This document shows, piece after piece, positions 81 to 16,762 of a stretch of 41,836 nucleotides of DNA; within the stretch, counting starts at the first letter, position 1, and every line of letters begins with the position of its first letter. The translations under genes were made by a program, and so were the position numbers. Source of the stretch: Gilliamella sp. Lep-s35 (GTDB lineage Bacteria > Pseudomonadota > Gammaproteobacteria > Enterobacterales > Orbaceae). Location of the stretch: assembly GCF_009795845.1 (NCBI RefSeq), contig NZ_WTEX01000021.1, positions 1 through 41,836 on the forward strand. The letters are read 5' to 3'. The notes below the pieces were generated by a model that worked only from the letters and a program-made list of their open reading frames with translations, had not been told where the DNA came from and did no database searches.

Positions 81-512
81 TTACATATAAGGGAAAACAT
101 GGTTTTCTAATGAACGCCAAGCCTTTTTGAGTGTTTGCTCTTCTAAACCTTGTTCTGTTTTGAATTTTAACCATTTCTCAGCCATAGCGTAAAAGGTATT
201 ATTACAAGCTTCTTGCTTACGTTGTTCTTGTTCCGCTTTGTGATGTTGTGGATCTATCCCTTGCTTTATTAATTCTCGCGCTTCATCTCGTTGTTTTCGC
301 GCTTGTTGTAGCGATGTTTCTGGGTATTTATCGAAAGATAGTAATGCCTCTTTATGTGATATTGGCTTTTTATATTTAAATCGCCATAATTTAACCCCTG
401 TCGATTTAACTAACAGAAAAAGACCTCCACCATCAAAATACTTTTTATCCTTACTAGTGGCTTTTAATGCTTTTATTTGTGTGTCAGTTAAGGGAGTAGT
501 TTTTACAGCCAT
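81..512 (-). pseudogene. Truncated P4-type tyrosine integrase (N-terminal part only)
   Basis: The 143 residues match the N-terminus of P4-like tyrosine recombinases (DUF4102 arm-binding domain). 'LTDTQIKALK' opens the protein, 'DGGGLFLLV' and 'KLWRFKY' follow, and the start of the SAM-like core-binding domain ('MAEKWLKFK') lies near residues 109-117. Complete relatives have about 400 residues. This frame stops after 'HVFPYM', where the family continues into the catalytic domain, so the R-H-R-Y catalytic residues are missing. The start is the ATG at 512-510, preceded by AGGTG. It lies just beyond the 3' end of tRNA-Ala on the same strand, the usual position of an integrase beside its attachment site. 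The fragment may still bind DNA but cannot recombine. It is probably the scar of a lost or rearranged genomic island. Confidence 0.85.
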
Positions 513-520
513 TTTTCACC

Positions 521-572
521 TTTGGGGGTACGCAATAATAGGGTATTTAATTATACCCCCAAATATACCCCC
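521..572. repeat. Cluster of GGGGGTA repeats in the integrase leader
   Basis: TTTGGGGGTA at 521-530 is the exact reverse complement of TACCCCCAAA at 554-563. TATACCCCC occurs twice in direct orientation (552-560 and 564-572), with a 12-base period. The cluster lies between the integrase start and the tRNA gene, where arm-type integrase or excisionase sites and the integrase promoter are expected. That role is inferred. Confidence 0.6.
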
Positions 573-696
573 ATTATTTTTGGTTGTAAATGTACCTTAC
601 TGATACTTAATGGGCAATAAAATAGACTTTAAGGCTTGTTATTACTGGGTTTGGTGTACTTTGTAGGGTTTAAAAGAATGTTACTGATTATTGAAT

Positions 697-772
697 TGGT
701 GGAGCCAAGGGGGATCGAACCCCTGACCTCAACGCTGCCAGCGTTGCGCTCTCCCAGCTGAGCTATGGCCCC
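697..772 (-). tRNA. tRNA-Ala (anticodon GGC)
   Basis: The minus strand reads from 772 as a complete cloverleaf with an encoded CCA at 699-697. The acceptor stem GGGGCCA pairs with TGGCTCC (one G-T wobble), the D arm contains AGCTCAGCTGGGAGAGC, and the T arm contains GGTTCGATCC-like sequence. The anticodon arm AACGC-TGGCA-GCGTT carries anticodon GGC, which reads GCC/GCU alanine codons. A consensus promoter lies just upstream. The 3' end faces the truncated integrase, so it probably served as the attB site of an integrated element. Confidence 0.95.
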
Positions 773-898: not shown

Positions 899-1900
899 TT
901 AACGCAATATTGAAGGTTGATCTGCGCCTTCTGCTTCAATTTTAGGTGGCATAAAGTGTTCACGTTTTACGCCTAATTTGAGTGACATATAGGCAGCCAC
1001 ATAAATTGATGAGATTGTACCAAGCACAATACCAACGCCTAATGTTTCAGAGAAACCTTTTAACATTGAACCGCCAAAGATATACAAAATGATGACTACT
1101 GCAAGGGTTGTCCCTGACGTCATCAAAGTACGGTGCAATGTTTGTGTTAACGAGATGTTGATAACATCGTAAGGATCTGCTCGTCGAATCTTTCTAAAAT
1201 TCTCACGAATTCGGTCGAAAACTACAATGGTATCATTGAGCGAATAACCAATTATCGATAACATTGCAGCAATGATAGTTAAATCTAGTTCTCGTTCAAA
1301 TAACGATAGATAACCTGCGGTGATGATAACATCATGCGCTAAGGCAACAACCGCACCAGTACCAAATCGCCATTCAAAACGAAAGGCAATATAGATTAGA
1401 ATACACACTAATGCTGCACAGATGGCCAAAATACCATCTTGGGCAAGTTCAGAGCCTACTGTTGGGCCGACAAACTCAATACGTTTAATTTGCGCATTGG
1501 CATCAATGTCTTTATGTATTAAATTAGAAATTTTTGTGCCTAATGCATTATCAATCGTAGATGAAACACTACCATCTTCTTGCTTAGCTGAAGGTAATCT
1601 AATGATGATATCTTTACTACTACCGTAATACTGTACTATCGGTTCATGATAGCCTGCATTGCGTAGACTGTTACGAAGGTCATCAAGATTAACCGCTTTT
1701 GTTACTGTGAGTTCTACTGTCGTACCGCCAGTGAAGTCTTGTCCTAGATTAAATCCTTTAACAAAAATAACCACAAAAGAGGCTACCACTAATAACATTG
1801 AAATCACAAAAGCAATAAAGCCAAATTTTAAAAAGTCGAGGACTCTGCGGCCATGATTGAGTTCTCTAACATCATGATTTTCTTTTTTATTAATAATCAC
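899..1900 (-). CDS. secF: Protein translocase subunit SecF
   Basis: SecF is an inner-membrane partner of SecD. Together they use the proton gradient to pull exported proteins through SecYEG on the periplasmic side. The 333 residues are close to the usual ~320. A first membrane segment (about 25-50) is followed by the family signature 'GQDFTGGTTVEL' (about 53-64), a periplasmic P4-type domain, and the conserved RND block 'ALAHDVIITAGYLSLF' and 'SIIGYSLNDTIVVFDRIREN' in the second half, then two more membrane helices. It starts 9 bases after the secD stop, so the two genes are translationally linked. The gene ends at a strong hairpin terminator. Nothing is unusual apart from the relocated operon. 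Confidence 0.98.
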   Translation of the reverse strand: MIINKKENHDVRELNHGRRVLDFLKFGFIAFVISMLLVVASFVVIFVKGFNLGQDFTGGTTVELTVTKAVNLDDLRNSLRNAGYHEPIVQYYGSSKDIIIRLPSAKQEDGSVSSTIDNALGTKISNLIHKDIDANAQIKRIEFVGPTVGSELAQDGILAICAALVCILIYIAFRFEWRFGTGAVVALAHDVIITAGYLSLFERELDLTIIAAMLSIIGYSLNDTIVVFDRIRENFRKIRRADPYDVINISLTQTLHRTLMTSGTTLAVVIILYIFGGSMLKGFSETLGVGIVLGTISSIYVAAYMSLKLGVKREHFMPPKIEAEGADQPSILR

Positions 1901-1909
1901 AATAAACCT

Positions 1910-3766
1910 CTAAATTGATAACTTATTAACACGGCGTCCGCCATAAATAAGATTAGCTAATGCACGAGTACCAACAATCGATGTAAACATTGATGTTACA
2001 ATGCCGATGCCTAATGTAATGGCAAAGCCTTTAATTGAGCCTGTACCAACAGCATAAAGAATAACCGCTGTAATTAATGTGGTTAGGTTGGCGTCAAAAA
2101 TACTGCTCCACGCCCCTGCATATCCTTCATTAATTGCATATTGTACTCCACGTCCGTTGCTGAGCTCTTCTTTTATCCGTTCATTGATAAGTACATTAGC
2201 ATCAACAGCCATACCAACGGTTAATACAATACCTGCAATACCTGGCATGCTGAGCGTTGCGCCAGGAAGTAAGGACATAACACCAACAATTAAAATTAAA
2301 TTAGCAACCAGTGCAAGGCTTGCAAATAGACCAAATAGGCGATACATCACTAACATAAAGATAACTGAAACCGCTAACCCCCAAGCGCAAGATTCTAACC
2401 CTTGGGTTATGTTTTCTTGTCCCATTGATGGCCCAACAGTACGTTCTTCAATAATTTGAATTGGCGCAATTAGAGCTCCTGCTCGCAATAATAACGATAA
2501 ATTTTTAGCTTCATCAATACTGCCAATACCCGTTACCTGAAAATGGTCACTAAAAATACCTTGAATTGTTGCTACGTTGATAACACGTTCTTGCTTTTCA
2601 AGAATTGGTTTGTCGTTTTCATCACGTTTACCCGTGTCTTTATATTCAACAAATAAGGTTGCCATCGCTTTATCAATATTCTTTTGGGTAAAATTCAACA
2701 TTTTTTTACCGCCAGAACCATCAAGCGTAATAGCAACTTCAGGTTGACCATATTGGCTTGTGCGAAATGATGAATCAGTAATATGATCCCCTGTTAGTAC
2801 AATTCGTTTATAAAGTAATACTGGGTAGCCACTTTCCGTATATTGGATTTCCGAACCATACGGAACTCGCATATCACCACTTAAGATAGTAGGCAGATCA
2901 GCGGTGCGATCTTGGTTAACTTGTCTAAACTCAAGTGTCGCTGTTGCGCCCAAAATACGCTTAGCTAATGCGGTGTCTTGTATACCCGGTAATTCTACCA
3001 CTATACGATCCGCCCCTTGGCGTTGCACAATCGGCTCGGCAACACCTAGTTGGTTAACGCGGTTGCGTAAAATAGTTGTGTTTTGTTGTACAGCGTCATT
3101 TTTAGCTTGTTGTAACCGTTTGTCGCTAATGTTGATAATAATGCCGTTGTCACTTTGAGAAATAACTTTGAAATCCTGTAAATTATTGATCTTGGTGATC
3201 GCTTTATTACGATCTTCAGTATTATCAAATTGTATGATAATTTGCTCATTACGGTTTTTGTTGATTGTTTTATAATTTAATTTACTAGCTGTAAATTCAG
3301 CTTTTATGTTTTCAATGGATTGTTCAGTGAGTTTACTTAATGCAGTTGTCATATCAACTTCCATTAAGAAATGAACACCACCACGCAAATCAAGTCCTAG
3401 TTTCATCGGTTCAGCACCTAACATTGTAAGCCATGCGGGTGTTGCTGGTGCTAAATTTAATGCAACAATATACTCTTCACCTAACGCTTCGGATATAAGC
3501 TCTTTCGCTTTAAGCTGTGCATCGTTATCACTAACACGAATTAAAATCGATTTATTTTCATAAACGATTGATTTAAATTTGATATCATTATCAATCAAAA
3601 TTTTTTTAACTTTATCTTGTGTAGTAACATTGATTTCAGCACTATTTAAGCCTGAAATTTGTATAGCGGGATCTTCACCATAAATATTTGGAAGTGCATA
3701 AAGTAGGCCGAGGCAAATGACTACGACCAACATAATGTATTTCCACAAAGGATAGCGGTTTAACAC
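1910..3766 (-). CDS. secD: Protein translocase subunit SecD
   Basis: SecD is an RND-like inner-membrane protein that forms the SecDF-YajC accessory complex of the Sec translocon. At 618 residues it matches the family length. It shows an N-terminal membrane segment, the periplasmic P1 head with the D1 motif 'LGLDLRGGVHFLMEVD' (about 123-138), 'LRNRVNQLGVAEPIVQRQG' in the second half of P1, and six C-terminal membrane helices with 'GMAVDANVLINERIKEEL', which holds the conserved proton-pathway aspartate. The start is GTG at 3766, preceded by AAGAGA. No ATG is available in frame at the right place. It sits 59 bases downstream of yajC and 9 bases before secF. Confidence 0.98.
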   Translation of the reverse strand: MLNRYPLWKYIMLVVVICLGLLYALPNIYGEDPAIQISGLNSAEINVTTQDKVKKILIDNDIKFKSIVYENKSILIRVSDNDAQLKAKELISEALGEEYIVALNLAPATPAWLTMLGAEPMKLGLDLRGGVHFLMEVDMTTALSKLTEQSIENIKAEFTASKLNYKTINKNRNEQIIIQFDNTEDRNKAITKINNLQDFKVISQSDNGIIINISDKRLQQAKNDAVQQNTTILRNRVNQLGVAEPIVQRQGADRIVVELPGIQDTALAKRILGATATLEFRQVNQDRTADLPTILSGDMRVPYGSEIQYTESGYPVLLYKRIVLTGDHITDSSFRTSQYGQPEVAITLDGSGGKKMLNFTQKNIDKAMATLFVEYKDTGKRDENDKPILEKQERVINVATIQGIFSDHFQVTGIGSIDEAKNLSLLLRAGALIAPIQIIEERTVGPSMGQENITQGLESCAWGLAVSVIFMLVMYRLFGLFASLALVANLILIVGVMSLLPGATLSMPGIAGIVLTVGMAVDANVLINERIKEELSNGRGVQYAINEGYAGAWSSIFDANLTTLITAVILYAVGTGSIKGFAITLGIGIVTSMFTSIVGTRALANLIYGGRRVNKLSI

Positions 3767-3825: not shown

Positions 3826-4155
3826 TTATAGTGATTTCATTGTTCCTTTTGGTAAAACTGATGTAATAAAGTCACGTTTGATTACAATTTCAGTTGTATC
3901 ATTTAATTCTAATGCGATGTAACCATTGTCGTTAACTTTTGACACACGACCAATAATCCCACCATTGGTTAATACTTCATCACCTTTTGAAATTGACGCC
4001 ATTAAATCACGATGTGCTTTGGCGCGTTTTTGTTGTGGACGCATAATCATAAAATAGAAAAATAAACCAAACACAATCAACATAATCATCGGAAAGTAAT
4101 CACCACCTAGTTGATTACCATCTGCGGCGTAAGCATTAGAAATTAAAAAGTCCAT
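3826..4155 (-). CDS. yajC: Sec translocon accessory subunit YajC
   Basis: This small single-span inner-membrane protein associates with SecDF and SecYEG. At 109 residues it is almost identical in length to the E. coli protein. The hydrophobic helix (about 22-38) runs into the hallmark 'MRPQQKRAKAH', followed by the conserved cytosolic segment 'ISKGDEVLTNGGIIGRVSKV'. It is the first gene of the yajC-secD-secF operon. In E. coli queA and tgt precede yajC, but here the upstream neighbour is nuoN, so the operon has a new promoter context. Confidence 0.97.
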   Translation of the reverse strand: MDFLISNAYAADGNQLGGDYFPMIMLIVFGLFFYFMIMRPQQKRAKAHRDLMASISKGDEVLTNGGIIGRVSKVNDNGYIALELNDTTEIVIKRDFITSVLPKGTMKSL

Positions 4156-4340: not shown

Positions 4341-6146
4341 TTATGTGGTTAAATATTGCGCAAAACTAACTAAGTTAAATAACCATTTAGGATAAACTCC
4401 ACAAAGCATTGTTAATAAAGCACATAGCACAATAATTAATTCACTAATTCTAATATTACTCCATTTTAATTTCATTGAAGATCCGCTTGTCACTTGAGCA
4501 TCATGGCTGATTGGTCTGATATAAAGATTGATGATTAAGCGAGCATAAAAGTAAAGTCCTAATGTGCTACCAATAACAATAGCCGCAACTAGCCACCATA
4601 GTTCAGCTGTTACCCCTAATAATACCAGTAAAAATCGTCCAATGAATCCTGTAGTTAATGGGACACCAGCTAAAGATAAAAAGCCTATTCCCATTGCTAA
4701 TGCCAGAATGGGTCTTCGCCAAAAAAGTCCTGACAGGTCGATTTCAGTTTCATGATCTTGAAGTTCATCAGAATGAGAATCTAAACTGATCGTTCCTAAA
4801 ATACAGATGTTAGCTAAAATATATCCAATTAGGTAAACACCAATAGTTTCTAATGCAAGTACTTGATATTGCACAGCAATGAGAGCTGTTAATAAATAAC
4901 CAAAATGTGCTATTGATGAATAAGCAAGTAATCGCTTTAAGTTACTTTGCATTAACGCTAATAAGTTACCCCATAAAATAGAGCAAAAAGCCATAATCAC
5001 TAAAATAATACGGATGGTTTCATTATTAACAATAGGGGCCAATAAAAACAGTCTTGCTATAGCACAAAAAACGGCAACTTTTCCGACCGTTGATAATAAC
5101 AAAGCGACAACTGTTGGAGCGCCTTGATAAACATCGGGTAACCATAGTTGAAATGGAACGAGTGATAACTTAAAACCAATACCCACTAGCATTAAGCAAA
5201 CACCTATCAGTAATAATGTGCTTGGGTAAGACATCGTTGAAAGCTGATAACTTAGCCCACTGAAAGTTAGTTCCCCTGTCGTTGCATAATAAAAGGCGAT
5301 CCCCATCAATAAAAATACACCCGCAACAGCGGATAATATCATGTATTTAACGGCAGCTTCTAATGAATGTGTTTGCGTATATTGATAACCAATCAACCCC
5401 ACAAACGGGATCGATAACAGTTCAATACCAATAAAAAATGAAATTAAATGGCTTGAGTATACGAGTGTTACACCACCTAATGCCATAAAAAGTAGAATTA
5501 AATAAAATAACCCATGATGGGTTTGTTCTTGTTTAAACCAACGATAAGCAAAACATGCAACTGTAATGGATATCATTAAAATTAAACTAGTATAAAGTAA
5601 TCCGTAACCGTCACAAGTAAATAGGGCAGTGATATGTCGAGCTTTCCATTCATCCACTGAAGATGTATCTATATTTGCGTTATCACCAATATTAGAATTA
5701 AAGCTATCTGTAATACTCGTTGTACCTGTATCGATGCTTGCGTTAGTGCTTGGGTTTTCATTTGTATCTGTGCGTGTATTTGTCTTATCGATATTGTTGT
5801 TATCGTTATTAGCATCAACACTTCTGTTTTCACTCTGATTTGGTGATTCTACTGATTCAGTAGGCACAGTATCGACTGCGATTGTTGTTTCACTTGATGG
5901 GTCGGTTTTTTTGATACGATCTGAATCAGGTACCGATATTTGCATATTATCACTACTGATATCAGTAATTGCTTGAGTGCTAGACGAAATTTTATAACCA
6001 ACCACTACAGCGCAGAACAAAGCGATAGATAATCCACATACAGTTAAAATAGTGCAAGCTTTAGTATTTATTTTTAAAACAAACAGTGAAAATAATAAAA
6101 TAATGATGGCAAAGCTTAATACTAAAATAGGTGATAAAGCTATCAT
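4341..6146 (-). CDS. nuoN: NADH-quinone oxidoreductase subunit N with a long low-complexity insertion
   Basis: NuoN is one of the three antiporter-like, proton-pumping subunits of complex I. The body aligns well with E. coli NuoN. 'FIGIELLSIPFVGLIGY' holds the TM5 glutamate, 'LEAAVKYMILSA' and 'GFKLSLVPFQLWLPDVYQGAP' hold pathway lysines, and 'STVGKVAVF' and 'NLKRLLAYSSIAHFGYLL' are also conserved. Two differences: the histidine of 'VPFHLW' is Gln, and the C-terminal channel lysine ('GFIGKF' in E. coli) is Arg. The 601 residues exceed the usual ~485 because residues about 53-170 form a Ser/Thr/Asn/Asp-rich stretch between the second and third membrane helices, probably facing the periplasm. 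It is the last gene of the nuoJKLMN block, 6 bases after nuoM. The identity is secure; whether it is functional is uncertain. Confidence 0.95.
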   Translation of the reverse strand: MIALSPILVLSFAIIILLFSLFVLKINTKACTILTVCGLSIALFCAVVVGYKISSSTQAITDISSDNMQISVPDSDRIKKTDPSSETTIAVDTVPTESVESPNQSENRSVDANNDNNNIDKTNTRTDTNENPSTNASIDTGTTSITDSFNSNIGDNANIDTSSVDEWKARHITALFTCDGYGLLYTSLILMISITVACFAYRWFKQEQTHHGLFYLILLFMALGGVTLVYSSHLISFFIGIELLSIPFVGLIGYQYTQTHSLEAAVKYMILSAVAGVFLLMGIAFYYATTGELTFSGLSYQLSTMSYPSTLLLIGVCLMLVGIGFKLSLVPFQLWLPDVYQGAPTVVALLLSTVGKVAVFCAIARLFLLAPIVNNETIRIILVIMAFCSILWGNLLALMQSNLKRLLAYSSIAHFGYLLTALIAVQYQVLALETIGVYLIGYILANICILGTISLDSHSDELQDHETEIDLSGLFWRRPILALAMGIGFLSLAGVPLTTGFIGRFLLVLLGVTAELWWLVAAIVIGSTLGLYFYARLIINLYIRPISHDAQVTSGSSMKLKWSNIRISELIIVLCALLTMLCGVYPKWLFNLVSFAQYLTT

Positions 6147-6152
6147 AATTGA

Positions 6153-7697
6153 TTATTCTCCCACTCGCTCTGTGGCTATATATTGTTGAGTTTGATTTAC
6201 CACAGAATAAGACATATCTAAGATTAGTTTAGGATACATGCCAATAAAAATTAGGACAATTAAGACGCTTGATAATAATAAGAAATCTTTTTTGCTAAGT
6301 ATATGTTTTGTTGTATTGCCTTTATCAGTAGAGCCATAAAAAATTGGTTGCATACGAACAATAAATGAAATAGATACCAATAATAAGCCAATTGCTAATA
6401 AAATTGTATAAAACGAGAAAGTATTATAACTACCAAGTAACATCATATAATTACCAACAAAATTCGCCGTACCAGGAATACCTAATACAGCCAAAATAAA
6501 ATATAAAGCAAATGAAGATAAGTAAGGTACGCGCTCTTTAAGCCCGATAAATTGGTTTATGTTTCGTGTTGAGTAACATTCAACTAATAATCCACTAATT
6601 ATAAACATGCCAACTATTGCTAAATTGATAGCAATCATTTGAATAACAACGCCTTGATAAGCAATCACCGAACCACTATAAATAATTGCAGTAACAAAGC
6701 CCATCAATGCAATGTGAATATAAGCAATAAGTTTCTTAATATCGGTTTGATTGAATGCCAGTAAGGCTGCATAAACAATAGTAAGTATTGCAAAAACTAA
6801 CATAACCGGCATAATTATGATTGATGCACTAGGAAATAACGGTATCACAAAACGTAATAAACCAAATGCAGTGGTGTTAAGTAGTAATCCACTAATCATC
6901 ATTGACCCAGTTGTTGAAGATTCAATATGAGCTTGAATAAACCAACTATGAAAAGGTACAAAAGGTATGCGAACAATAAAAGCTGCTAAAAAACCTAACA
7001 TAAGTAAAAATTCAGTATTACTTGAGATAGGCGTTTTGGTTAAGATCTGATAATCAAACGTCCAATGTCCTGTTAAGTTCCAATTAATTAAGGCTAATGA
7101 CACTATTGAGATTAGCATAAGTAAACTGCTTAGTTGGGTATAAATCAAAAATTTACTAGCACCATTAAAACGCAATTGTGAGTTTGAATCTCGTCTTCCC
7201 CATAATGAGATTAAAAAATAGATGGGAATTGCCACTGCTTCCCAAAATAAGAACATTAAAAATAAATCAGTGATGACAAACAGAATTATAATAGCTGATG
7301 TCATAAATAATAAACATAGGTAAAATAAGCCAAGATTGTTTAGGCTTTCTTTACTAGAATAAACAATCGTCAATAGCACGATAAATAGGGTTGAGGTGAT
7401 AACAATCATAGATAAACCATCTAAAACAAGATGAAAATGAATGCCTAGCAAAGGAATCCATTCAAGATTCACTTCTTTTACCCAATTTTCCTGTTGATTT
7501 AACACATTTATGGCGTCTATCCAAAATGTTATCGCTATTAATAATGTAATGCAAATTGTGATAAATGCTATAATTATTGGTAATTTCGACCAACGTATTT
7601 GTACATTGGTGGAAACAACGCCTCTTTGAAAACATGCATGGCATAACCAACCAATAAATCCGCCTATTACAGGTAAAAAAACAAGCCATAATAACAT
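6153..7697 (-). CDS. nuoM: NADH-quinone oxidoreductase subunit M, lacking most proton-channel residues
   Basis: NuoM is a Mrp-antiporter-like membrane subunit of complex I. The 514 residues equal the normal length, with about 14 membrane helices. Family landmarks are present: 'VLDGLSMIVI', 'FLFWEAVAIPIYFLISLWG' (TM5 glutamate kept), 'FNQTDIKKLIAYIHIALMGF' and 'LGIPGTANFVGNYMML'. Against E. coli the channel residues are changed. The K234 equivalent is Arg ('AFIVRIPFVP'), K265 is Asn ('LLLNTTAFG'), and E407 is Asn ('NFVGNYMML'). The conserved histidines of 'SVSHMGF' and 'MIAHGLS' are Ala and Ile. The frame is intact, so loss of residues is not accompanied by disruption. It lies 17 bases downstream of nuoL and 6 bases before nuoN. 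Confidence 0.95.
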   Translation of the reverse strand: MLLWLVFLPVIGGFIGWLCHACFQRGVVSTNVQIRWSKLPIIIAFITICITLLIAITFWIDAINVLNQQENWVKEVNLEWIPLLGIHFHLVLDGLSMIVITSTLFIVLLTIVYSSKESLNNLGLFYLCLLFMTSAIIILFVITDLFLMFLFWEAVAIPIYFLISLWGRRDSNSQLRFNGASKFLIYTQLSSLLMLISIVSLALINWNLTGHWTFDYQILTKTPISSNTEFLLMLGFLAAFIVRIPFVPFHSWFIQAHIESSTTGSMMISGLLLNTTAFGLLRFVIPLFPSASIIIMPVMLVFAILTIVYAALLAFNQTDIKKLIAYIHIALMGFVTAIIYSGSVIAYQGVVIQMIAINLAIVGMFIISGLLVECYSTRNINQFIGLKERVPYLSSFALYFILAVLGIPGTANFVGNYMMLLGSYNTFSFYTILLAIGLLLVSISFIVRMQPIFYGSTDKGNTTKHILSKKDFLLLSSVLIVLIFIGMYPKLILDMSYSVVNQTQQYIATERVGE

Positions 7698-7714
7698 GAA
7701 TGATTACACCTTTA

Positions 7715-9562
7715 TTAAATAAAAATCAGTAACATTAATATGATAATACTACCTATTACCATTGAAACCAAATACCACCGAGTTTGCCCATTTTCTAGGT
7801 TAACGATGAATGAGTTTACTTTTTTAATTCCTTTCATTATCCAATCATCCCATAAAGCAAGAGGATCTTTTTTCAATAAACGGGCTAAATAGATATAAGG
7901 ATTAACAAATAGCGTATGCAATAAATAGTTATAATGCCAATCACTATTACATAAACGTAAAAAAAACTTAATTATTGGGGTATTTAGGACTTCTTGTACT
8001 TCGCTATTGGGGTGAGCGTATAAAATATAGGCAATAAGAAAACTCAATAATGTTACTGCGGCTAGTAATAAGCGAAAATATGTCCGACCGTTAGTATCAA
8101 ATTCAGCAATAGGAATAATACCTTGAATAGGTAAAGGGAAATAGATAAATACGGCCGTTGTAAAAATCACTAATATAAAAATTGGATAATAACTTATTGA
8201 TTTAGTTTTAGCAAAATCAAAAATCTTTGGTTTATGATAAAATACTATAAAGATTAAGCGCCAAATACTTAAACTAGACAGCAAAATCCCTAATAATCCT
8301 ATAGTTCCTGACATTAAACGTTCTTTTGCCATTAATCCCCAAATAATATCTCCTTTGATATAAAATGATGCTGAAATCCATGGCATAGCGCTTAACGATA
8401 ACATAATAAATAAAAATATTACATATAGTATTGGGAATGATTTTATTAAGCCACCAAGTTTATTGATATTTCTTTCACCTTGACAATTTTTAATTAATAT
8501 TGCAGATGCAAAAATTAATAAAGTACTCGTTACAGCATAATTAATTAAACAATTAAGTGATAAATTCCAATTTTGAGAGGAAAAGGCATAAAATAAATAA
8601 CTAATTTGTGCCAAATTGATATAAGTGACAATTCTTTTTATATCATTTTGTACTAAAGCTATTGAGCTAGCAAATAGTACAGTTAATGATGAAATGATAG
8701 TCATTATGGCTAACGTATCGTTAGACATCATAAATAAATTGCTTAGCCTTAATATCAAATATACGCCTGCTAAAATAACTGTAGATGATTGCATTAAAGC
8801 TACTGCTGGCATTGGTGCTAATGTTGTTTCTGCAAACCATGAATGCATAGGAAATAGTGCGGACTTACTCATTGCACCAAGAAACAGCATTAATGTTGTC
8901 CAAAATATAATATCTGAGTCAACAGCTAAATTATCATGTGCTTGTTCCAAAACATCGCGGATACTTAATGTCTCTACCGTTTGATACAGTAAAAATATAC
9001 CAATAATTAAAAAGATATCAGTTAAATGCATAATGATAAATGCCTTGACTGCTGCATAACCATTACGAGCTTGTTTGTAGTAAATACCAATAAGTAAGTA
9101 AGTGCTGATACTCACGCCTTCCCAACCAATCAACATAACAAATAGATTATCAACTAGTATGATGGTTAATATGCTAGCAATTAATAAGTTACTGTAAGCG
9201 TAAAAGGTGTAAATATCACTTCTTGACGTTAAATAACAGGCAGCAAAAAAGTAGATCAAAAAGCCAAAGAATGAGATTAAAACTAAAAATGTTAGTGATA
9301 AACCATCCAAGGTTAAAGAAATTGGCACAGTAAAATTACTCACAGAAAACCAATTCCACAATTGCCTAGTATAAACTAAGGTCATGTCTGGTACTGTGTT
9401 TGAACTAAAATCAACGCAACAAAATACTGCAATTAATGCAATGATCAGCATAGTGGTAATACCAATAATCATCACGTCAATTGATCGAATATACCTCCCA
9501 AAGCAAATCAATATTAGAAAAGAGAGCATGGGAATAATAATGGTTAAATAAAGTAAATTCAT
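7715..9562 (-). CDS. nuoL: NADH-quinone oxidoreductase subunit L, several proton-channel residues replaced
   Basis: NuoL is the distal antiporter-like subunit of complex I, carrying the long lateral helix. At 615 residues it is full length. 'LVDNLFVMLIGWEGVSISTYLLIG' keeps the TM5 glutamate, 'GAMSKSALFPMHSWFAE' keeps the K229 equivalent, 'QNDIKRIVTYINLAQISY' follows, and the C-terminal lateral-helix region ends in 'NGQTRWYLVSM'. Compared with E. coli, the conserved His of 'ALIHAAT' is Gln ('ALMQSST'). The 'HLMTHAFFK' segment (H334, H338, K342) reads 'CLINYAVTS', losing all three. 'SKDEI' reads 'IKGDI', keeping the lysine but losing the first acid. It overlaps nuoK by 4 bases (ATGA). The intact frame argues against simple decay. 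Confidence 0.95.
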   Translation of the reverse strand: MNLLYLTIIIPMLSFLILICFGRYIRSIDVMIIGITTMLIIALIAVFCCVDFSSNTVPDMTLVYTRQLWNWFSVSNFTVPISLTLDGLSLTFLVLISFFGFLIYFFAACYLTSRSDIYTFYAYSNLLIASILTIILVDNLFVMLIGWEGVSISTYLLIGIYYKQARNGYAAVKAFIIMHLTDIFLIIGIFLLYQTVETLSIRDVLEQAHDNLAVDSDIIFWTTLMLFLGAMSKSALFPMHSWFAETTLAPMPAVALMQSSTVILAGVYLILRLSNLFMMSNDTLAIMTIISSLTVLFASSIALVQNDIKRIVTYINLAQISYLFYAFSSQNWNLSLNCLINYAVTSTLLIFASAILIKNCQGERNINKLGGLIKSFPILYVIFLFIMLSLSAMPWISASFYIKGDIIWGLMAKERLMSGTIGLLGILLSSLSIWRLIFIVFYHKPKIFDFAKTKSISYYPIFILVIFTTAVFIYFPLPIQGIIPIAEFDTNGRTYFRLLLAAVTLLSFLIAYILYAHPNSEVQEVLNTPIIKFFLRLCNSDWHYNYLLHTLFVNPYIYLARLLKKDPLALWDDWIMKGIKKVNSFIVNLENGQTRWYLVSMVIGSIIILMLLIFI

Positions 9563-9861
9563 CCTTTCATTTCACTCAATGAGTCAATATTAAAGATTTT
9601 TCGACGGTAGAATAATTTCATCATTAATGCAAGGCCAACACAAATCTCAGCTAAAGCCGTTATTAGCGCTAATATAGCTAGCATTTGCCCATCAGATTGT
9701 TGCCAATAGTTACTGGCAGCAAACAATGCGACTATTGCACCATTATTCATAATAATAAGGCTAAGTAATAAAAAATAGAAATGGCGTCGGATCATTATCC
9801 CTAACAGACCAATTACAAATAAAATAGAAGACAAAATAAGACAATGCATGAGTGGAATCAT
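9559..9861 (-). CDS. nuoK: NADH-quinone oxidoreductase subunit K with the TM2 glutamate replaced
   Basis: NuoK is a three-helix membrane subunit of complex I (ND4L equivalent). Its 100 residues match E. coli NuoK in length and at both ends: 'MIPLMHCLILSSILFVIGL' at the start and 'NIDSLSEMKG' at the C-terminus. The TM3 glutamate (E72) remains in 'ITALAEICVG'. The TM2 glutamate (E36, in E. coli 'GLEIMINAS') is isoleucine here ('SLIIMNNGA', residue 36). E36 is part of the proton path linking NuoH/J/K to NuoN, so the change should be functionally severe. The gene is adjacent to nuoJ without overlap and overlaps nuoL by 4 bases. Confidence 0.95.
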   Translation of the reverse strand: MIPLMHCLILSSILFVIGLLGIMIRRHFYFLLLSLIIMNNGAIVALFAASNYWQQSDGQMLAILALITALAEICVGLALMMKLFYRRKIFNIDSLSEMKG

Positions 9862-10356
9862 TTATTTCTCCGATATAAGCCTGTGCATAAAATGATAAGC
9901 AATCACAGCTGCACCCAACAATAAAAATATGGCTAATTCTACCATCAAAATATACGCATATATGGACATTTCATGCATTAACTCATGAGACTCTTTCAGT
10001 TCTAAATAGTTAGTATTTACTACACCATAAATAAGAGCTACTAGCAAAATAAATGCTAAAATTAGTGGCCCTAACCAGATTCTAGGACTAATACCTAGTT
10101 TCTTGTTGTTTTCTACATTATCTACGCTAATTTTTAAAATTGATGCGACAAGCAAAAATAGAGTCACCGATCCACCAATAAATAATAAGACATATAAAAC
10201 AGCAGAAAAATACGTATCAAGTAGAATAAATATCAATGCTGACGCAAAAAGTGAAATAATGAGGTATAAAATTGCTTTATCAATTCGTAAACTACTAATC
10301 ACTTTTATACTGGCAAAGACAGCAATAATCGACGCGATATAAAAAACAGCGATCAT
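9862..10356 (-). CDS. nuoJ: NADH-quinone oxidoreductase subunit J, first gene of a truncated nuo operon
   Basis: NuoJ is a five-helix membrane subunit of complex I (ND6 equivalent). The fold pattern and 'FYIASIIAVFASIKVISS', 'ALIFILLDTYFSAVLY' and 'SIYAYILMVELAIFLLLGA' correspond to E. coli NuoJ segments. The TM3 block 'LEIIVYAGAIMVLF' of E. coli reads 'LYVLLFIGGSVTLF', so its Glu and Tyr are replaced. I prefer the ATG at 10356, which aligns with the E. coli start and has GGA upstream. A TTG at 10368 would add four residues and has no ribosome site. nuoI should lie immediately upstream but does not, and no clear promoter is visible. It is therefore uncertain that the block is transcribed normally. 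Confidence 0.9.
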   Translation of the reverse strand: MIAVFYIASIIAVFASIKVISSLRIDKAILYLIISLFASALIFILLDTYFSAVLYVLLFIGGSVTLFLLVASILKISVDNVENNKKLGISPRIWLGPLILAFILLVALIYGVVNTNYLELKESHELMHEMSIYAYILMVELAIFLLLGAAVIAYHFMHRLISEK

Positions 10357-10449
10357 TAAATAATCCAATATATATTCATAATGTTATTAGTATATACCCA
10401 AATGTTATCAAGATACAGCACGTAAATGTGGTGTTTGTCTAAAATTAAA

Positions 10450-10532: not shown

Positions 10533-10789
10533 ATGAAAAAAATAACTGAACACCAAATTGTATCGATATTAAAAGAAGCAGAATCCGGTATTGCCGTTAA
10601 AGAACTGTGCCGTAAATATAGCATGGGTAATTCAACTTTCTATAAATGGTGGGAAAAATACGGCTGAATGGAAAGCTTAGATATCAAACGCTCAAAAGAA
10701 CATGAGAAAGAAATCGTGAGCTTAAACAAATGGTTGATGAGTTAAGTTTAAAATCCCAGCTTTAGGAAGTAATTATAAAAAAGCTGTAA
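10533..10789 (+). pseudogene. IS3-family OrfA remnant (stop, frameshift, no OrfB)
   Basis: The first 44 codons encode a helix-turn-helix OrfA N-terminus: 'MKKITEHQIVSILKEAESG', then 'VKELCRKYSMGNSTFYKWW', typical of the IS3 family. A TGA at 10665 interrupts it. Downstream, 'MESLDIKRSKEHEKE' continues in frame. After a one-base slip near 10711, 'NRELKQMVDELSLKSQL' and (after an in-frame TAG) 'EVIIKKL' complete the usual leucine-zipper region up to TAA 10787-10789. A TATAAT at 10505 and GAGG before the ATG are relics of its promoter and ribosome site. No OrfB (DDE catalytic domain) follows. The remnant sits where nuoI would be expected, so it may mark the event that removed nuoA-I. Confidence 0.85.
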
Positions 10790-12861: not shown

Positions 12862-14262
12862 ATGAGTTATTTATCGATTGAGTTTAGTTTACTCTTTATC
12901 GCTTTCTTCGCCTTATATTGGGGATGTCGCTTATCACCCAAAATACAAAATAGCCTGCTTTTAATAGCAAGTTATCTTATTGTTGGCAGTTATAGTTGGC
13001 AATTTTCGCTTATCCTTTTTATTTATACCTGTGTGATTTATCTGCTTTCAGTGATGATTGCTGCATCAGAACGTTATGCAAAGCGATGGCTAACTTTTGG
13101 ATTATGCGTATCGGTTTTAAATTTAGCACTATTTAAATATTTTGATTTTTTTCGTTACGAGTTGCAAGATCTATTTTATTTCTTTGATTTGCCTGTTTTA
13201 TTGCCAGTTATCACTGTATTAATTCCTATTGGTATTTCATTTTATACCTTTCATTCCGTAAGTTACTTAGTTTCAATAAAAAAGAAGGAGCTTGCTGTTG
13301 CTAAATTTTGGGATTTTGCGCTGTTTTTATCATTTTTTCCTAGTATTATTGCTGGTCCCATTAACCGAGCTAAAGATTTTTTACCGCAAATCAATATTAC
13401 TCAGCCTCGTGAAATTTTAGAACCGTTTCGTGCATTTACATTGCTTATTTTAGCTGTGACTAAGGTTTACTGCTTAGGCGGTTTAATTAGTGAACATTGG
13501 GTAAAACCCATATTTGCCAATCCATTAGAATTTAGTGTAATTGATTTGTTAGTTGGACTTTATGCTTACGCTATGCAAATTTACTTAAATTTTTCGGGCT
13601 ACACTGATTTAGTAACGGGTATTGCTTTATTGTTAGGGTTTCGTTTGCCAATTAATTTTAATTTGCCATATTTAGCTTTGAATTTAAGGGACTTTTGGTC
13701 ACGTTGGCATATTAGCTTATCAAGTTGGATTCGCGACTATATTTATATCCCACTTGGTGGAAATCGTCGAGGATTTATTCGAACTCAAATTAATGTTATT
13801 TTAGCCATGTTATTATCGGGATTGTGGCATGGAGCAGGCCTTAATTTTATTATTTGGGGAGCATGTCATGGTATTGGCATTGTGGTACTTAATATCGGTG
13901 ATTGTTATTTAGGTAAAAATTGGCTAACGTTACGTTCACCAATAGCCGCTCGGTTACTAACATGGCATTATGTTTGTTTTACTTGGCTGTTTTTTTATTG
14001 TGAAAGTTTGTCTGATGCATTGGATTATTTGACCGCATTACTGCATAACTTTTTTATAGAACCTCAATATGCAGGGTCTTTTTTGGTTATTGGTTTTATC
14101 TACTTTGCCTATCCAATGTGTAAAAATTTTACTGAGTGGTTTATTATACAGTTAAACAAAATACCTCATTTATATTTACCGTTGGTATTTATTTTCATTT
14201 TGTGGTTAGTTATTTATATTGCACCATCAGGTGTGCCAAACTTTATTTACGCTAATTTTTAA
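12862..14262 (+). CDS. MBOAT O-acyltransferase, probably moving acetyl groups across the inner membrane (PatA/AlgI-like)
   Basis: This polytopic membrane-bound O-acyltransferase has 466 residues and roughly 11-12 helices. The signature 'DFWSRWHISLSSWIRDYIY' spans 277-295, followed by 'PLGGNRRG' (297-304). The catalytic-type histidines lie in 'LLSGLWHGAG' (His323) and 'WGACHG' (His336). 'SFYTFHSVSY' and 'GPINRAKDF' are further MBOAT landmarks. In peptidoglycan O-acetylation (PatA), alginate (AlgI) and cellulose acetylation, such proteins pass acetyl from a cytosolic donor to a periplasmic SGNH enzyme. The two downstream genes encode SGNH proteins, so I infer envelope O-acetylation, with peptidoglycan the likeliest target. 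The ribosome site AAAGGA precedes the ATG. The substrate cannot be read from sequence. Confidence 0.88.
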   Translation: MSYLSIEFSLLFIAFFALYWGCRLSPKIQNSLLLIASYLIVGSYSWQFSLILFIYTCVIYLLSVMIAASERYAKRWLTFGLCVSVLNLALFKYFDFFRYELQDLFYFFDLPVLLPVITVLIPIGISFYTFHSVSYLVSIKKKELAVAKFWDFALFLSFFPSIIAGPINRAKDFLPQINITQPREILEPFRAFTLLILAVTKVYCLGGLISEHWVKPIFANPLEFSVIDLLVGLYAYAMQIYLNFSGYTDLVTGIALLLGFRLPINFNLPYLALNLRDFWSRWHISLSSWIRDYIYIPLGGNRRGFIRTQINVILAMLLSGLWHGAGLNFIIWGACHGIGIVVLNIGDCYLGKNWLTLRSPIAARLLTWHYVCFTWLFFYCESLSDALDYLTALLHNFFIEPQYAGSFLVIGFIYFAYPMCKNFTEWFIIQLNKIPHLYLPLVFIFILWLVIYIAPSGVPNFIYANF

Positions 14263-14274
14263 TAATACTTAATT

Positions 14275-15594
14275 ATGATGATATCTAACAAAACGTTATC
14301 AAAAAATAATAAAAAAAACAATTTGAATTTGAAACAGCAACGCTATAATGCATTGTATAAAAATACGATTAAAAAAGATGCCATAAAAAATAAGAAAACC
14401 AAAAGAGCTCATGTTATTGCTAATGCTCCTTTATCTGCTCGTTATATATTTGTAATATTTTTTGTTACTGCCATTACATTAATAGCGATATATTACAAGT
14501 CAATATTGGTTTATTGCGAGCAAGCATATCATACTGATTTGTTTAATAGTAACACACTTGCAGTAGAAGAACTTTCAATACAAGAACTTGAAGAAAACAA
14601 AAAATATGAGCAAGATACTCAAGAAGATGTAAATGTACAAATACCATCTTCATTGGCACAACCAATTGATGTTGCACTACCCGTTGCTGAAAAGATAACA
14701 TCTAACTCAGTAGTAGCTGAAACTGAAGAGATAAAACCAAATAAAAAAATAGAAGTGGTAACAGATTCAGATATAAAAATCACTCAAAGGGTAAATATAG
14801 AAAGTGGTGAAATAACCTCTGAACTAAAACCACATTCTGATCCTACTAATTATAATAAGTCCAAAACTGAATTAATATCACACGATGATCCTAAAAAAAT
14901 ACTAGAGGATATTGAGCAACCCCATGAGCTACTACCTATTATATTAACAAGTAATGATAAAGTATTATTTGCTGGTGATTCTTTAATGCAAGGTGTAGCC
15001 CCATATGTTAAAAAAATGCTTTTCAAGCAATATAAAATAGAAAGTCTTGATTTAAGTAAACAAAGTACAGGACTTGCTTATCCAAACGCTTTTAATTGGC
15101 CAAAAACAATTAACGATAATTTAATTGCTGACCCTTCAATTAAACTACTTATTATTTTTATTGGAGCTAACGATCCTTGGGATTTTCCTGTTAAAAGCTA
15201 CGCTAAATACGCTAAATTCAAATCCAAATTGTGGGAAGAACACTATCGTTTGCGTATTGCATCTATTTTAAATAGTGCTATAGAACATGATGTTCAAGTG
15301 CTTTGGCTTGCTGCTCCTTGTATGCGTAAACCAAAATTAAACGATGGAATGGTTTATCTAAATAATTTATATCGATCTGAGCTAGAAAAGTCTCAACAGC
15401 ATTTCTTATCAACAAATGAATTACTGGGTTGTACGTACGAAAAATTTAGTAATTTTACAAAAATTGATAAAGCAAAAATTAAAGTAAGAGTTGATGATGG
15501 AATTCATTTTACATTAACAGGCCAAAAAATTCTGGCAAATGCCATTATGGAACAAATAATTTATAAAGAATTAGAGGATACCCATAGTGATTAA
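14275..15594 (+). CDS. Membrane-anchored periplasmic SGNH/GDSL protein (DUF459/PatB-like)
   Basis: There is a basic cytosolic N-terminus (1-53), one membrane anchor (about 54-77), a Ser/Thr/Glu-rich low-complexity linker (about 90-220), and a C-terminal SGNH domain. Block I is 'VLFAGDSLMQG' with Ser236, block III 'IFIGANDPW' with Asn299, and block V 'VDDGIHFT' with Asp408 and His411, so the Ser-Asp-His triad is complete. The arrangement suits a periplasmic acetyltransferase that receives acetyl from the MBOAT protein, like PatB, but esterase activity is equally possible. It starts 12 bases after the MBOAT gene and overlaps the next gene by 8 bases, so the three are one operon. No strong ribosome site is visible; ATG 14275 or 14278 could be used. 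Confidence 0.8.
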   Translation: MMISNKTLSKNNKKNNLNLKQQRYNALYKNTIKKDAIKNKKTKRAHVIANAPLSARYIFVIFFVTAITLIAIYYKSILVYCEQAYHTDLFNSNTLAVEELSIQELEENKKYEQDTQEDVNVQIPSSLAQPIDVALPVAEKITSNSVVAETEEIKPNKKIEVVTDSDIKITQRVNIESGEITSELKPHSDPTNYNKSKTELISHDDPKKILEDIEQPHELLPIILTSNDKVLFAGDSLMQGVAPYVKKMLFKQYKIESLDLSKQSTGLAYPNAFNWPKTINDNLIADPSIKLLIIFIGANDPWDFPVKSYAKYAKFKSKLWEEHYRLRIASILNSAIEHDVQVLWLAAPCMRKPKLNDGMVYLNNLYRSELEKSQQHFLSTNELLGCTYEKFSNFTKIDKAKIKVRVDDGIHFTLTGQKILANAIMEQIIYKELEDTHSD

Positions 15595-16762
15595 ATTTTT
15601 AAAATATATTGCAATCATAATAGTAATAACAATTACTGTTGGATGTAATGTAGCTGAAAGTAAAACTACTACTGCATCAGCGATAGTTGATTTTGGTGAT
15701 CCTAATGCAAAACAATTTGCAACACGTTTAAAATCATTAGCGGATAAAAAACAGGCTAATCAAGTGATTAATATTACTCAATTTGGTGATTCACATTCTG
15801 CAGCTGATTTTTTTACTGGCGAATTTAGAACATTAATGCAACAAAAATACGGTAATGCAGGCATTGGTTGGGTAACACCTGTCGCTATAAAAGGACAAAA
15901 CCATGTAGCGGTTACATGGCGAACTAAAGACTGGGATGTGTTAAGTAGCCGTACTTTAAATAATTTGGATTTTCCTATGGGGGGATTCATTGCCAAACCA
16001 AATAAAGATTCGGCTACTATCCAAGTTGTGCCAAGAATATCTAATAATAAATACTGGCAAGTTAAGTTAACCTTTAAAACACTTAAAAATAACTCAAGCT
16101 CATTAACACTTTATGATGCCAGTGATAAAAAAATTAGTTTAAGTTATAAGCCAACACCAAATGTTTGGCAAACAGCTTCGGTTGTGTCTAAAATGCCTTT
16201 AGTAATAAAAGGTCAAAAAGATATAGAGCTTGGTGGAATTTGGTTAACTCGTTATAAACAATCAGGTGTTATCGTTTCATCGATTGCTACAAATGGCGCT
16301 AAACAGACAATTTGGCAAAAGTGGGGGAAAAATTGGTTTAAAGAACTGGCCTTATCACAAAGTGATCTCGTTATTCTTGAATACGGAACAAATGAAAGTT
16401 TTGATGAAACATTAGATGCCAGTCAATATAAAAAAAACTTAGTGAACAATATCAGATTGATTCGTAAAATATTACCCCATGCTACCATTTTAATAATGAG
16501 TCCTCCTGACACAATGGTAAATGGAACTGATACACCAAAGTCTTTTGCAAAAATAATGAATATTCAAAAACAAGTCGCTAAATCTGAAAAAACACTATTT
16601 TGGGATTGGCAAGTAGCAATGGGGGGCAAGTTTTCCATTAAACAGTGGCGACAGCAAGGGCTTGCTAGTCCAGATTTAATTCATCAAACTTTAAAAGGCT
16701 ATAAAGAAAGTGCTCGTATTTTTTATGCCGATTTAAATGAATTTATTAGAAAAAATAGCTAA
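15587..16762 (+). CDS. Exported SGNH hydrolase with Ape1-like architecture
   Basis: This is a 391-residue exported protein. The hydrophobic signal segment (about 4-19) ends at Cys20 ('TVGC'), a possible but non-ideal lipobox (Thr at -3). SGNH blocks are 'TQFGDSHSAADF' (Ser69), 'LEYGTNES' (Asn269) and 'SPDLIHQT' (Asp363, His366). Residues about 100-230 between blocks I and III form a beta-rich insertion. This matches the Neisseria peptidoglycan O-acetylesterase Ape1, which has a CBM35-like insert in the same place. The start is GTG 15587, preceded by GAGG and overlapping the previous gene by 8 bases. Together with the MBOAT and DUF459-like genes this looks like a patA-patB-ape1 set that adds and removes acetyl on MurNAc. 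The function is inferred from architecture and context. Confidence 0.78.
   Translation: MIKFLKYIAIIIVITITVGCNVAESKTTTASAIVDFGDPNAKQFATRLKSLADKKQANQVINITQFGDSHSAADFFTGEFRTLMQQKYGNAGIGWVTPVAIKGQNHVAVTWRTKDWDVLSSRTLNNLDFPMGGFIAKPNKDSATIQVVPRISNNKYWQVKLTFKTLKNNSSSLTLYDASDKKISLSYKPTPNVWQTASVVSKMPLVIKGQKDIELGGIWLTRYKQSGVIVSSIATNGAKQTIWQKWGKNWFKELALSQSDLVILEYGTNESFDETLDASQYKKNLVNNIRLIRKILPHATILIMSPPDTMVNGTDTPKSFAKIMNIQKQVAKSEKTLFWDWQVAMGGKFSIKQWRQQGLASPDLIHQTLKGYKESARIFYADLNEFIRKNS

Follow-up and report, generated by a model that had tools for sequence, protein, structure and literature searches.

In the membrane arm of respiratory complex I, each antiporter-like subunit is described as a chain, linked by histidines, of an ion pair, a lysine in the centre and either lysine or glutamate at the distal end (PMC9271201). 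The mechanism by which NuoL, NuoM and NuoN carry protons is debated, and so is whether the arm has any function in the absence of the redox arm. Homologous antiporter-like subunits occur in Mrp antiporters, which likewise work without a redox arm, and the DabA–DabB inorganic carbon transporters include a NuoL-like subunit outside complex I. Modules of the NuoL and NuoM type, Nqo12 and Nqo13, have also been engineered free of the redox arm (PMC11496545, PMC13220270). The presence of orphan nuoJKLMN genes in Gilliamella and other Orbaceae is already published: these 5 of the 14 nuo genes were found in all 95 Gilliamella genomes and conserved across the family, and were considered probable remnants (PMC11325843, 2024), in the only paper on these orphan genes found by searching the openly licensed literature. 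The present analysis concerns the nuoJKLMN locus of Gilliamella sp. Lep-s35 (assembly GCF_009795845.1) on contig NZ_WTEX01000021.1, whose 41,836 nucleotides, analysed as a whole, are called the window below, and its counterparts throughout Orbaceae. The family has lost the ancestral residue at 11 of 20 proton-wire sites, the genes are under purifying selection, and the complex I partners that were searched for are missing from the window's genome. The reading that we favour, and to which we give about an even chance, is that the far membrane arm of complex I has been repurposed: retained under selection, no longer pumping, with its proton wire cut and mostly sealed.

Comparison with the described systems sets this locus apart from each of them. 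The five genes are orthologues of E. coli NDH-1 nuoJ to nuoN in the same order, with the NuoM fold and most of the ion pairs preserved; the differences are the absence of NuoD, NuoH and NuoA, the replacement of wire residues in NuoJ, NuoK, NuoL and NuoM, and a NuoN that carries K395R and an acidic insert. An Mrp complex is ruled out by the J+K+L+M+N composition and by the lack of MrpG (PF03334) in 44/44 family genomes (MrpE and MrpF were not searched). DabB2 was a weak PDB match to NuoL, but a DabAB transporter is excluded as well, DabA (PF10070) being found in 0/44 genomes. The Nqo12 and Nqo13 modules are laboratory constructs of a working enzyme; two of the sites altered here are those that block the NuoM-type module, whereas Orbaceae still have the NuoL-type site that was mutated in those constructs (PMC11496545, PMC13220270). 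The published orphan genes are the same genes in the same family, and the available parts of PMC11325843 make no mention of channel residues, selection, a promoter or a NuoN insert, features for which no prior account was found in the openly licensed literature searched. That paper also mentions that the lack of nuo genes is shared with Ca. S. bombi Bimp, whose locus (L134) carries adjacent nuoM and nuoN.

Proton-wire residues across Orbaceae

The family sample comprised 44 genomes from five genera (Gilliamella, Frischella, Orbus, Ca. Schmidhempelia and Zophobihabitans). NuoM matches were obtained in 42 of them, the two others being only 59% and 74% complete, and one genome (G034, 86% complete) was left out of the alignment. 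The MAFFT alignment thus contained 41 Orbaceae loci from 41 genomes (the window and 40 relatives), E. coli MG1655 and 20 other complex I operons, all from genomes with a strong NuoH and presumed functional; one of these outgroup rows (L093) has a weak NuoL (29% identity, 514 aa) and was retained in the counts. Residue numbers are those of E. coli unless marked as window numbering.

The initial annotation, made from the window alone, had described NuoL and NuoM as intact, full-length proteins deprived of most of their channel residues. Both frames are indeed complete, and eight of its nine residue calls agree with the alignment: K234R, K265N, E407N and one His-to-Ile change (H348I) in NuoM, and H254Q, H334C, H338Y and K342S in NuoL. 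The ninth, a His-to-Ala change in NuoM taken here as H322, is one position off, H322 aligning with Leu331 and adjoining Ala330 (window numbering). The ancestral residue is present in 20/20 outgroup operons at each substituted NuoL or NuoM site except H348 (18 His, 1 Val, 1 Ile). None of K234R, K265N, H322L, E407N, H254Q, H334C, H338Y or K342S occurs in an outgroup row, so that sharing of such changes with other complex I operons is confined to H348 (Val or Ile in 2/20).

Within the family the changes are fixed or nearly so in the 41 loci and five genera. NuoM K234R, H322L and E407N, NuoL H338Y and NuoJ Y59F are found in 41/41 Orbaceae, and the new residues NuoM N416 and R243, NuoL Y342 and NuoJ F63 (window numbering) are themselves fixed. 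The ancestral residue is equally gone from all 41 loci at NuoM K265 (30 Asn, 6 Thr, 4 Ser, 1 Gly), NuoL K342 (39 Ser, 1 Thr, 1 Ile), NuoL H334 (29 Cys, 6 Tyr, 6 Phe) and NuoK E36 (22 Met, 14 Ile, 5 Val), as well as at NuoL D400, which is Gly in 40 of them and variable in the outgroups (12 Asp, 7 Glu, 1 Trp). NuoN K395 is Arg in 40/41 rows, and NuoK E72 is divided between Glu (25) and Gln (16). NuoL H254 is Gln in 38/41; the two Schmidhempelia loci and the single Zophobihabitans locus still have His, which indicates stepwise loss at this site. A new histidine, S319H, occurs in NuoM of 40/41 Orbaceae and 0/21 other rows; its position three residues, or one helical turn, before the lost H322 may reflect a one-turn shift of that histidine.

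Loss of the proton channels, stated in general terms by the initial annotation, is only partial. The TM5/TM7 ion pairs are mostly retained while the carrier residues go, the NuoM pair now being Glu/Arg. The TM5 glutamate, said to be kept in both proteins, is conserved in NuoM (E144, 41/41, as is H241) but not in every NuoL (E144, 38/41); other NuoL residues that persist are D178 (41/41), K399 (40/41) and K229 (39, with Arg in 2). In NuoN, E133, K158, K217 and K247 are each present in 41/41. Outside its insert, NuoN also varies least among the three large subunits in Orbaceae, with near-invariant aligned columns at 201/478 positions compared with 159/499 in NuoM and 132/611 in NuoL. The 11 lost sites lie mostly in NuoL and NuoM, and the wire of NuoN is mostly kept.

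The wire sites were compared with other conserved positions. A column was considered invariant when at least 20/21 outgroup rows have the same residue (223 columns, 20 of them proton-wire sites), and a residue lost when at most 10% of Orbaceae keep it. The ancestral residue is lost at 11/20 wire sites and 50/203 other invariant columns (Fisher p = 0.007), and a new residue has become fixed at 6/20 and 9/203, respectively (p = 0.0007). These p-values are post hoc because the list of 20 sites was settled after the alignment had been inspected. The six wire sites among the 15 fixed columns are NuoM K234, H322 and E407, NuoL H338, NuoN K395 and NuoJ Y59. The 'selective loss of channel charges' put forward earlier therefore describes the wire sites but not charge in general: for NuoL and NuoM together, 16 invariant charged or His columns are kept and 12 lost, against 63 kept and 70 lost among other invariant columns (p = 0.41).

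Two outgroup operons from genomes of ~0.3 Mb (L091 and L098) retain all 11 wire residues gone in Orbaceae. Their tree distance to the node shared with Orbaceae is 1.03, close to the Orbaceae mean of 1.22, which argues that loss of the wire is more than plain fast evolution. The tree, used for monophyly and rough distances only, gives Orbaceae monophyly a support of 1.0, with a stem of 0.61 and a crown depth of 0.61, and puts the family next to a pair of outgroup rows whose genomes measure ~0.3 Mb, a placement that may be due to long-branch attraction. A burst of change on the Orbaceae stem is unsupported: distance ratios are ~1.6 for nuoJ, nuoL, nuoM and nuoN and also for the neighbouring genes yajC and secD, and 1.30 for nuoK.

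Gene content, selection and upstream sequence

Profile searches found no PF00346 (NuoD), PF00146 (NuoH) or PF00507 (NuoA) match in the window's genome, which is 2.47 Mb long and 99.99% complete, ruling out a complex I elsewhere in it as regards these three subunits. The J, K, L, M and N membrane subunits of E. coli complex I are present, but its peripheral arm and quinone module and the NuoH/NuoA link are absent as judged by these searches. Redox-driven pumping by complex I is impossible because NuoD, NuoH and NuoA are absent (NuoB, NuoC, NuoE, NuoF, NuoG and NuoI were not searched individually). The absence of the three subunits, the wire broken at NuoK E36 and the altered NuoJ Y59 strengthen the non-pumping structural role or new function suggested in the initial annotation, whose interpretation is supported in part and had missed the orphan setting.

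Across the family, PF00507 is matched in 0/44 genomes, and PF00346 and PF00146 in the same 5/44, the window's genome not among them. In these five genomes the matching genes are on a different contig from nuoJKLMN or separated from them by 80 kb or more, and they have other NuoL/M/N-like frames close by (L001-L010, L081-L085). The NuoCD-like protein of the two loci examined scores 201 and 188 bits against an NCBIfam NuoCD cut-off of 840 (E. coli NuoCD scores 1215), and the gene that follows it passes the hydrogenase-4 HyfH cut-off in the one locus tested; by these sequence scores, the NuoD/NuoH-like genes of the two loci are of hydrogenase-4 type. Hydrogenase-4 was nonetheless rejected as owner of the arm, given that PF00346 and PF00146 occur in only 5/44 genomes, apart from nuoJKLMN, and that HyfG/HyfC-like partners are absent from the window's genome.

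NuoM and NuoH matches in two wider samples were compared by eye. Among 247 genomes of the order, 89 have NuoM; 17 of these are Orbaceae without a complex-I-type NuoH (two have a weaker hydrogenase-type match), and 71/72 non-Orbaceae genomes also have a strong NuoH, the exception being 60% complete. In a sample of 348 genomes of the phylum, the window's genome is the only one to lack a PF00146 match while having NuoM at better than 1e-40; in 11 further genomes without PF00146 the NuoM matches are weaker and in the range of paralogues (7e-32 to 3e-39), and three (G428, G500 and G560) have NuoM at 1e-49 or better together with only a weaker PF00146 match. As a separate observation, the nuoM match of a reduced 1.0 Mb genome from this order (G104:C1:239271-240767) contains a single in-frame TGA.

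Neither broken frames nor relaxed selection, as would mark a decaying pseudogene, were observed in Orbaceae. The NuoM frame is free of stops in 42/44 family genomes and in 39/39 good ones, and no stop was found in any NuoM, NuoL or NuoN match listed for the 42 genomes. Gene order from nuoJ to nuoN is preserved in 40/40 relatives retrieved, with yajC directly after nuoN in 37/40. With yajC and secD as control genes, median dN/dS (ratio of non-synonymous to synonymous substitution rates; NG86) is 0.123 for nuoJ, 0.083 for nuoK, 0.097 for nuoL, 0.091 for nuoM and 0.105 for nuoN, compared with 0.108 for yajC and 0.056 for secD, as calculated with this simple method over up to 144/630 overlapping pairs with mean dS between 0.1 and 1.5 (fewer for nuoK, yajC and secD). 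In seven close pairs, dN/dS of NuoM ranges from 0.04 to 0.14 and that of NuoN reaches 0.255 in one pair.

Against the NCBIfam equivalog cut-offs, which are of the E. coli type, NuoL, NuoM, NuoN and NuoJ score below and NuoK above. An AlphaFold2 model of NuoM (pLDDT 85.4, pTM 0.88) superimposes on the best E. coli complex I chains with TM-scores of 0.92-0.94. The model shows helix breaks near R243 (243/251) and N416 (405/411), matching those expected of TM7 and TM12.

A 10-mer upstream of nuoJ, GTATATACTA, is exactly conserved at the corresponding site in 31/31 other Gilliamella-clade loci (32/32 with the window), whereas none of the 9 loci outside this clade, from four genera, has an exact match. 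It is surrounded by otherwise variable sequence that includes a second, partly conserved stretch. Its TATACT resembles a -10 element, and the 10-mer may be regarded as promoter-like. In addition, GTATATAC is palindromic and could be bound by a regulator.

NuoN carries a low-complexity insert. The segment matching E. coli NuoN residues 46-62 is 17 residues long in E. coli and 16-19 in 20/20 outgroups, but 76-224 in 41/41 Orbaceae. In 13 Orbaceae rows the insert has a net charge of -3 to -26 and is rich in Asn, Thr, Ser, Asp and Glu. It probably faces the periplasm, as suggested by the basic TM1-TM2 loop; the NuoN structure prediction (pLDDT 41, pTM 0.22) is too poor for a structural claim on it.

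A retained arm and the competing accounts

According to the reading favoured here, nuoJKLMN would encode the far arm of an ancestral complex I that has since shed its redox arm and linking subunits; parsimony dates this loss to before the last common ancestor of Orbaceae. The wire would have been cut by removal of NuoK E36, of a central lysine in both NuoM (K265) and NuoL (K342), of the NuoM terminal glutamate (E407) and of the connecting histidines, and the remaining TM5/TM7 ion pairs (Arg/Glu in NuoM) would hold each channel shut. Such changes may have been favoured because intact channels no longer gated by the redox arm would leak protons. The outcome would be an insulated scaffold in the membrane. 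Ion transport or sensing of the membrane potential could then fall to NuoN, the only subunit left with both ion pair and central lysine and now joined to an acidic extra loop that is probably periplasmic.

Gene content for the subunits searched, the family-wide substitutions, purifying selection and the conserved upstream element are direct results; the assembly of the five subunits and the topology of the loop are inferred, as is the sealed state, which draws on tests published for corresponding sites. In isolated Thermus thermophilus modules, K235M or E377Q in the NuoM homologue blocks proton conduction, as does loss of the terminal lysine (K385I) in the NuoL homologue, and breakage of the ion pair speeds conduction up (PMC11496545). 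It has been speculated that such modules are capped during assembly, so that the proton motive force is not dissipated (PMC13220270). By analogy, Orbaceae NuoM, with its middle lysine and terminal glutamate lost and its ion pair kept, is expected to be closed and non-conducting; NuoL is probably sealed too, and at most NuoN would move ions, which is itself uncertain because its distal lysine is now Arg.

Several points weigh against this proposal. The functional tests come from another species, and the sites were matched by description (middle lysine, terminal glutamate). E407 by itself is not decisive, since intact E. coli complex I with E407K still pumps at ~1.5 H+/e- (PMC9271201). Sealing of NuoL is less sure than that of NuoM because K399, the site whose loss blocks the NuoL homologue, is kept, and NuoL E144 is Gln or Val in 3/41 rows, a change that opens the isolated modules. 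NuoN keeps K158, K217 and K247 throughout the family, the enrichment at wire sites is post hoc as stated above, and among Orbaceae nuoJKLMN are 1.6-2.6 times faster-evolving than secD.

The intact residues of NuoN and its strong conservation would also fit a stand-alone ion transporter, in which NuoN provides a working H+ (or Na+/K+) path, the J, K, L and M subunits are its non-transporting companions and the whole moves cations, perhaps to maintain pH or sodium homeostasis, somewhat in the manner of Mrp. Mrp chains are among the PDB homologues found, and E. coli NuoL, NuoM and NuoN can reportedly replace MrpA and MrpD in Bacillus. With an Arg at the distal lysine of NuoN in 40/41 loci, a NuoM path that looks blocked and no MrpG in any family genome, we consider this account possible but somewhat unlikely.

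The published view, that the genes are a slowly decaying leftover of genome reduction (PMC11325843), agrees with the disappearance of the redox arm, with the faster evolution of the genes relative to secD and with the loss of many otherwise invariant residues from NuoL, NuoM and NuoJ. Decay is difficult to reconcile with stop-free NuoM, NuoL and NuoN matches, a gene order preserved in 40/40 relatives, a dN/dS of ~0.1, an invariant promoter-like element in the Gilliamella clade and fixation of the new residues, and we regard it as distinctly unlikely. These data suggest that a module written off as a remnant in a major bee symbiont is functional.

A third account, which we judge very unlikely, is that the arm has acquired a new partner for redox or other energy coupling and that the changed residues form a new coupling path; the FrdCD anchors, likewise orphaned, would be one candidate and an unknown protein another. 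FrdC is found in 43/44 family genomes, and according to PMC11325843 the examined Orbaceae have only frdCD except for Zophobihabitans, which has all four frd genes. Co-retention of nuoJKLMN and frdCD in one family amounts, however, to a single observation; the frdC gene of the window's genome is on another contig (G000:C11:29663-29962), and NuoK E36, thought to be the entry of the wire, is gone in 41/41. The occurrence of FrdCD without frdAB in most Orbaceae is in itself a second case of a membrane anchor kept without its enzyme (PMC11325843).

Finally, errors of alignment or sequencing, or substitutions that working complex I commonly carries, are hardly credible as explanations: one earlier call was one position off (H322) and H348 varies in two outgroup operons, but 41 loci from 41 genomes agree and 20/20 operons, L091 and L098 included, are ancestral at all 11 lost wire sites.

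Orbaceae offer a natural experiment in which a family-wide, selected arm without a redox arm separates the residues that were retained (ion pairs) from those that were discarded (carriers).

Features of the window

The nuoJKLMN genes are the only nuo genes in the window and are transcribed from the minus strand in the order nuoJ, nuoK, nuoL, nuoM, nuoN, yajC, secD, secF (Table 1). For nuoJ, the ATG at 10356 was judged a likelier start than the TTG at 10368 chosen by the ORF (open reading frame) caller.

Table 1. Coordinates of genes, substituted codons and other features in the window.
Feature	Position	Strand	Remarks
secF	899-1900	-	follows secD; named from context
secD	1910-3766	-	follows yajC; named by alignment to E. 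coli secD
yajC	3826..4155	-	directly downstream of nuoN; assigned by alignment with E. coli yajC
nuoN, 601 aa	4341..6146	-	PDB search and alignment; ion pair E242/K326 and central K356 (window numbering) retained
NuoN R504	4635-4637	-	for distal K395
NuoN acidic insert	5643..5981	-	low complexity; TM2-TM3 loop; ~aa 56-168, edges approximate
nuoM, 514 aa	6153..7697	-	frame intact; near full-length best PDB match is E. coli NuoM; E153 and H250 (window numbering) retained
NuoM N416	6450-6452	-	for E407
NuoM L331	6705-6707	-	for H322
NuoM N274	6876-6878	-	for K265
NuoM R243	6969-6971	-	for K234
nuoL, 615 aa	7715..9562	-	frame intact; near full-length best PDB match is E. coli NuoL; D182, K233 and K403 (window numbering) retained
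NuoL S346	8525-8527	-	for K342
NuoL Y342	8537-8539	-	for H338
NuoL C338	8549-8551	-	for H334
NuoL Q258	8789-8791	-	for H254
nuoK, 100 aa	9559..9861	-	PF00420; NF004319 above cut-off
NuoK Ile36	9754-9756	-	for Glu36; Glu72 retained in the window copy
nuoJ	9862..10356	-	PF00499; NF005162 below equivalog cut-off
NuoJ Phe (Y59F)	10180-10182	-	for Tyr59 of E. coli NuoJ
Promoter-like 10-mer GTATATACTA	10388-10397	-	~30 bases before the nuoJ ATG; contains TATACT; sole exact copy in the window
Transposase fragment	10533-10664	+	PF01527
Partial integrase-type ORF	81-772		Arm-DNA-bind_3; adjoins tRNA-Ala
MBOAT, DUF459/GDSL and Ape1-like esterase genes	12862-16762	+	adjacent genes
Inverse autotransporter, 897 aa	23785-26478	+	IAT_beta

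Upstream of nuoJ there is no further nuo gene; the adjoining 0.8 kb contains the transposase fragment, probably IS3-like, and after it an opposite-strand ORF that we read from its sequence as tmk. The position of the fragment is occupied by a divergent ORF of 880-901 aa in 27/31 other Gilliamella-clade loci, so that the fragment may mark a rearrangement; this ORF is ppc in L052, the only one of the 40 retrieved loci whose upstream genes were scanned. The integrase-type ORF beside tRNA-Ala suggests an integrated element at the contig edge. Farther along the plus strand, the MBOAT, DUF459/GDSL and Ape1-like esterase genes possibly form a peptidoglycan O-acetylation cluster, and the window also encodes an inverse autotransporter.

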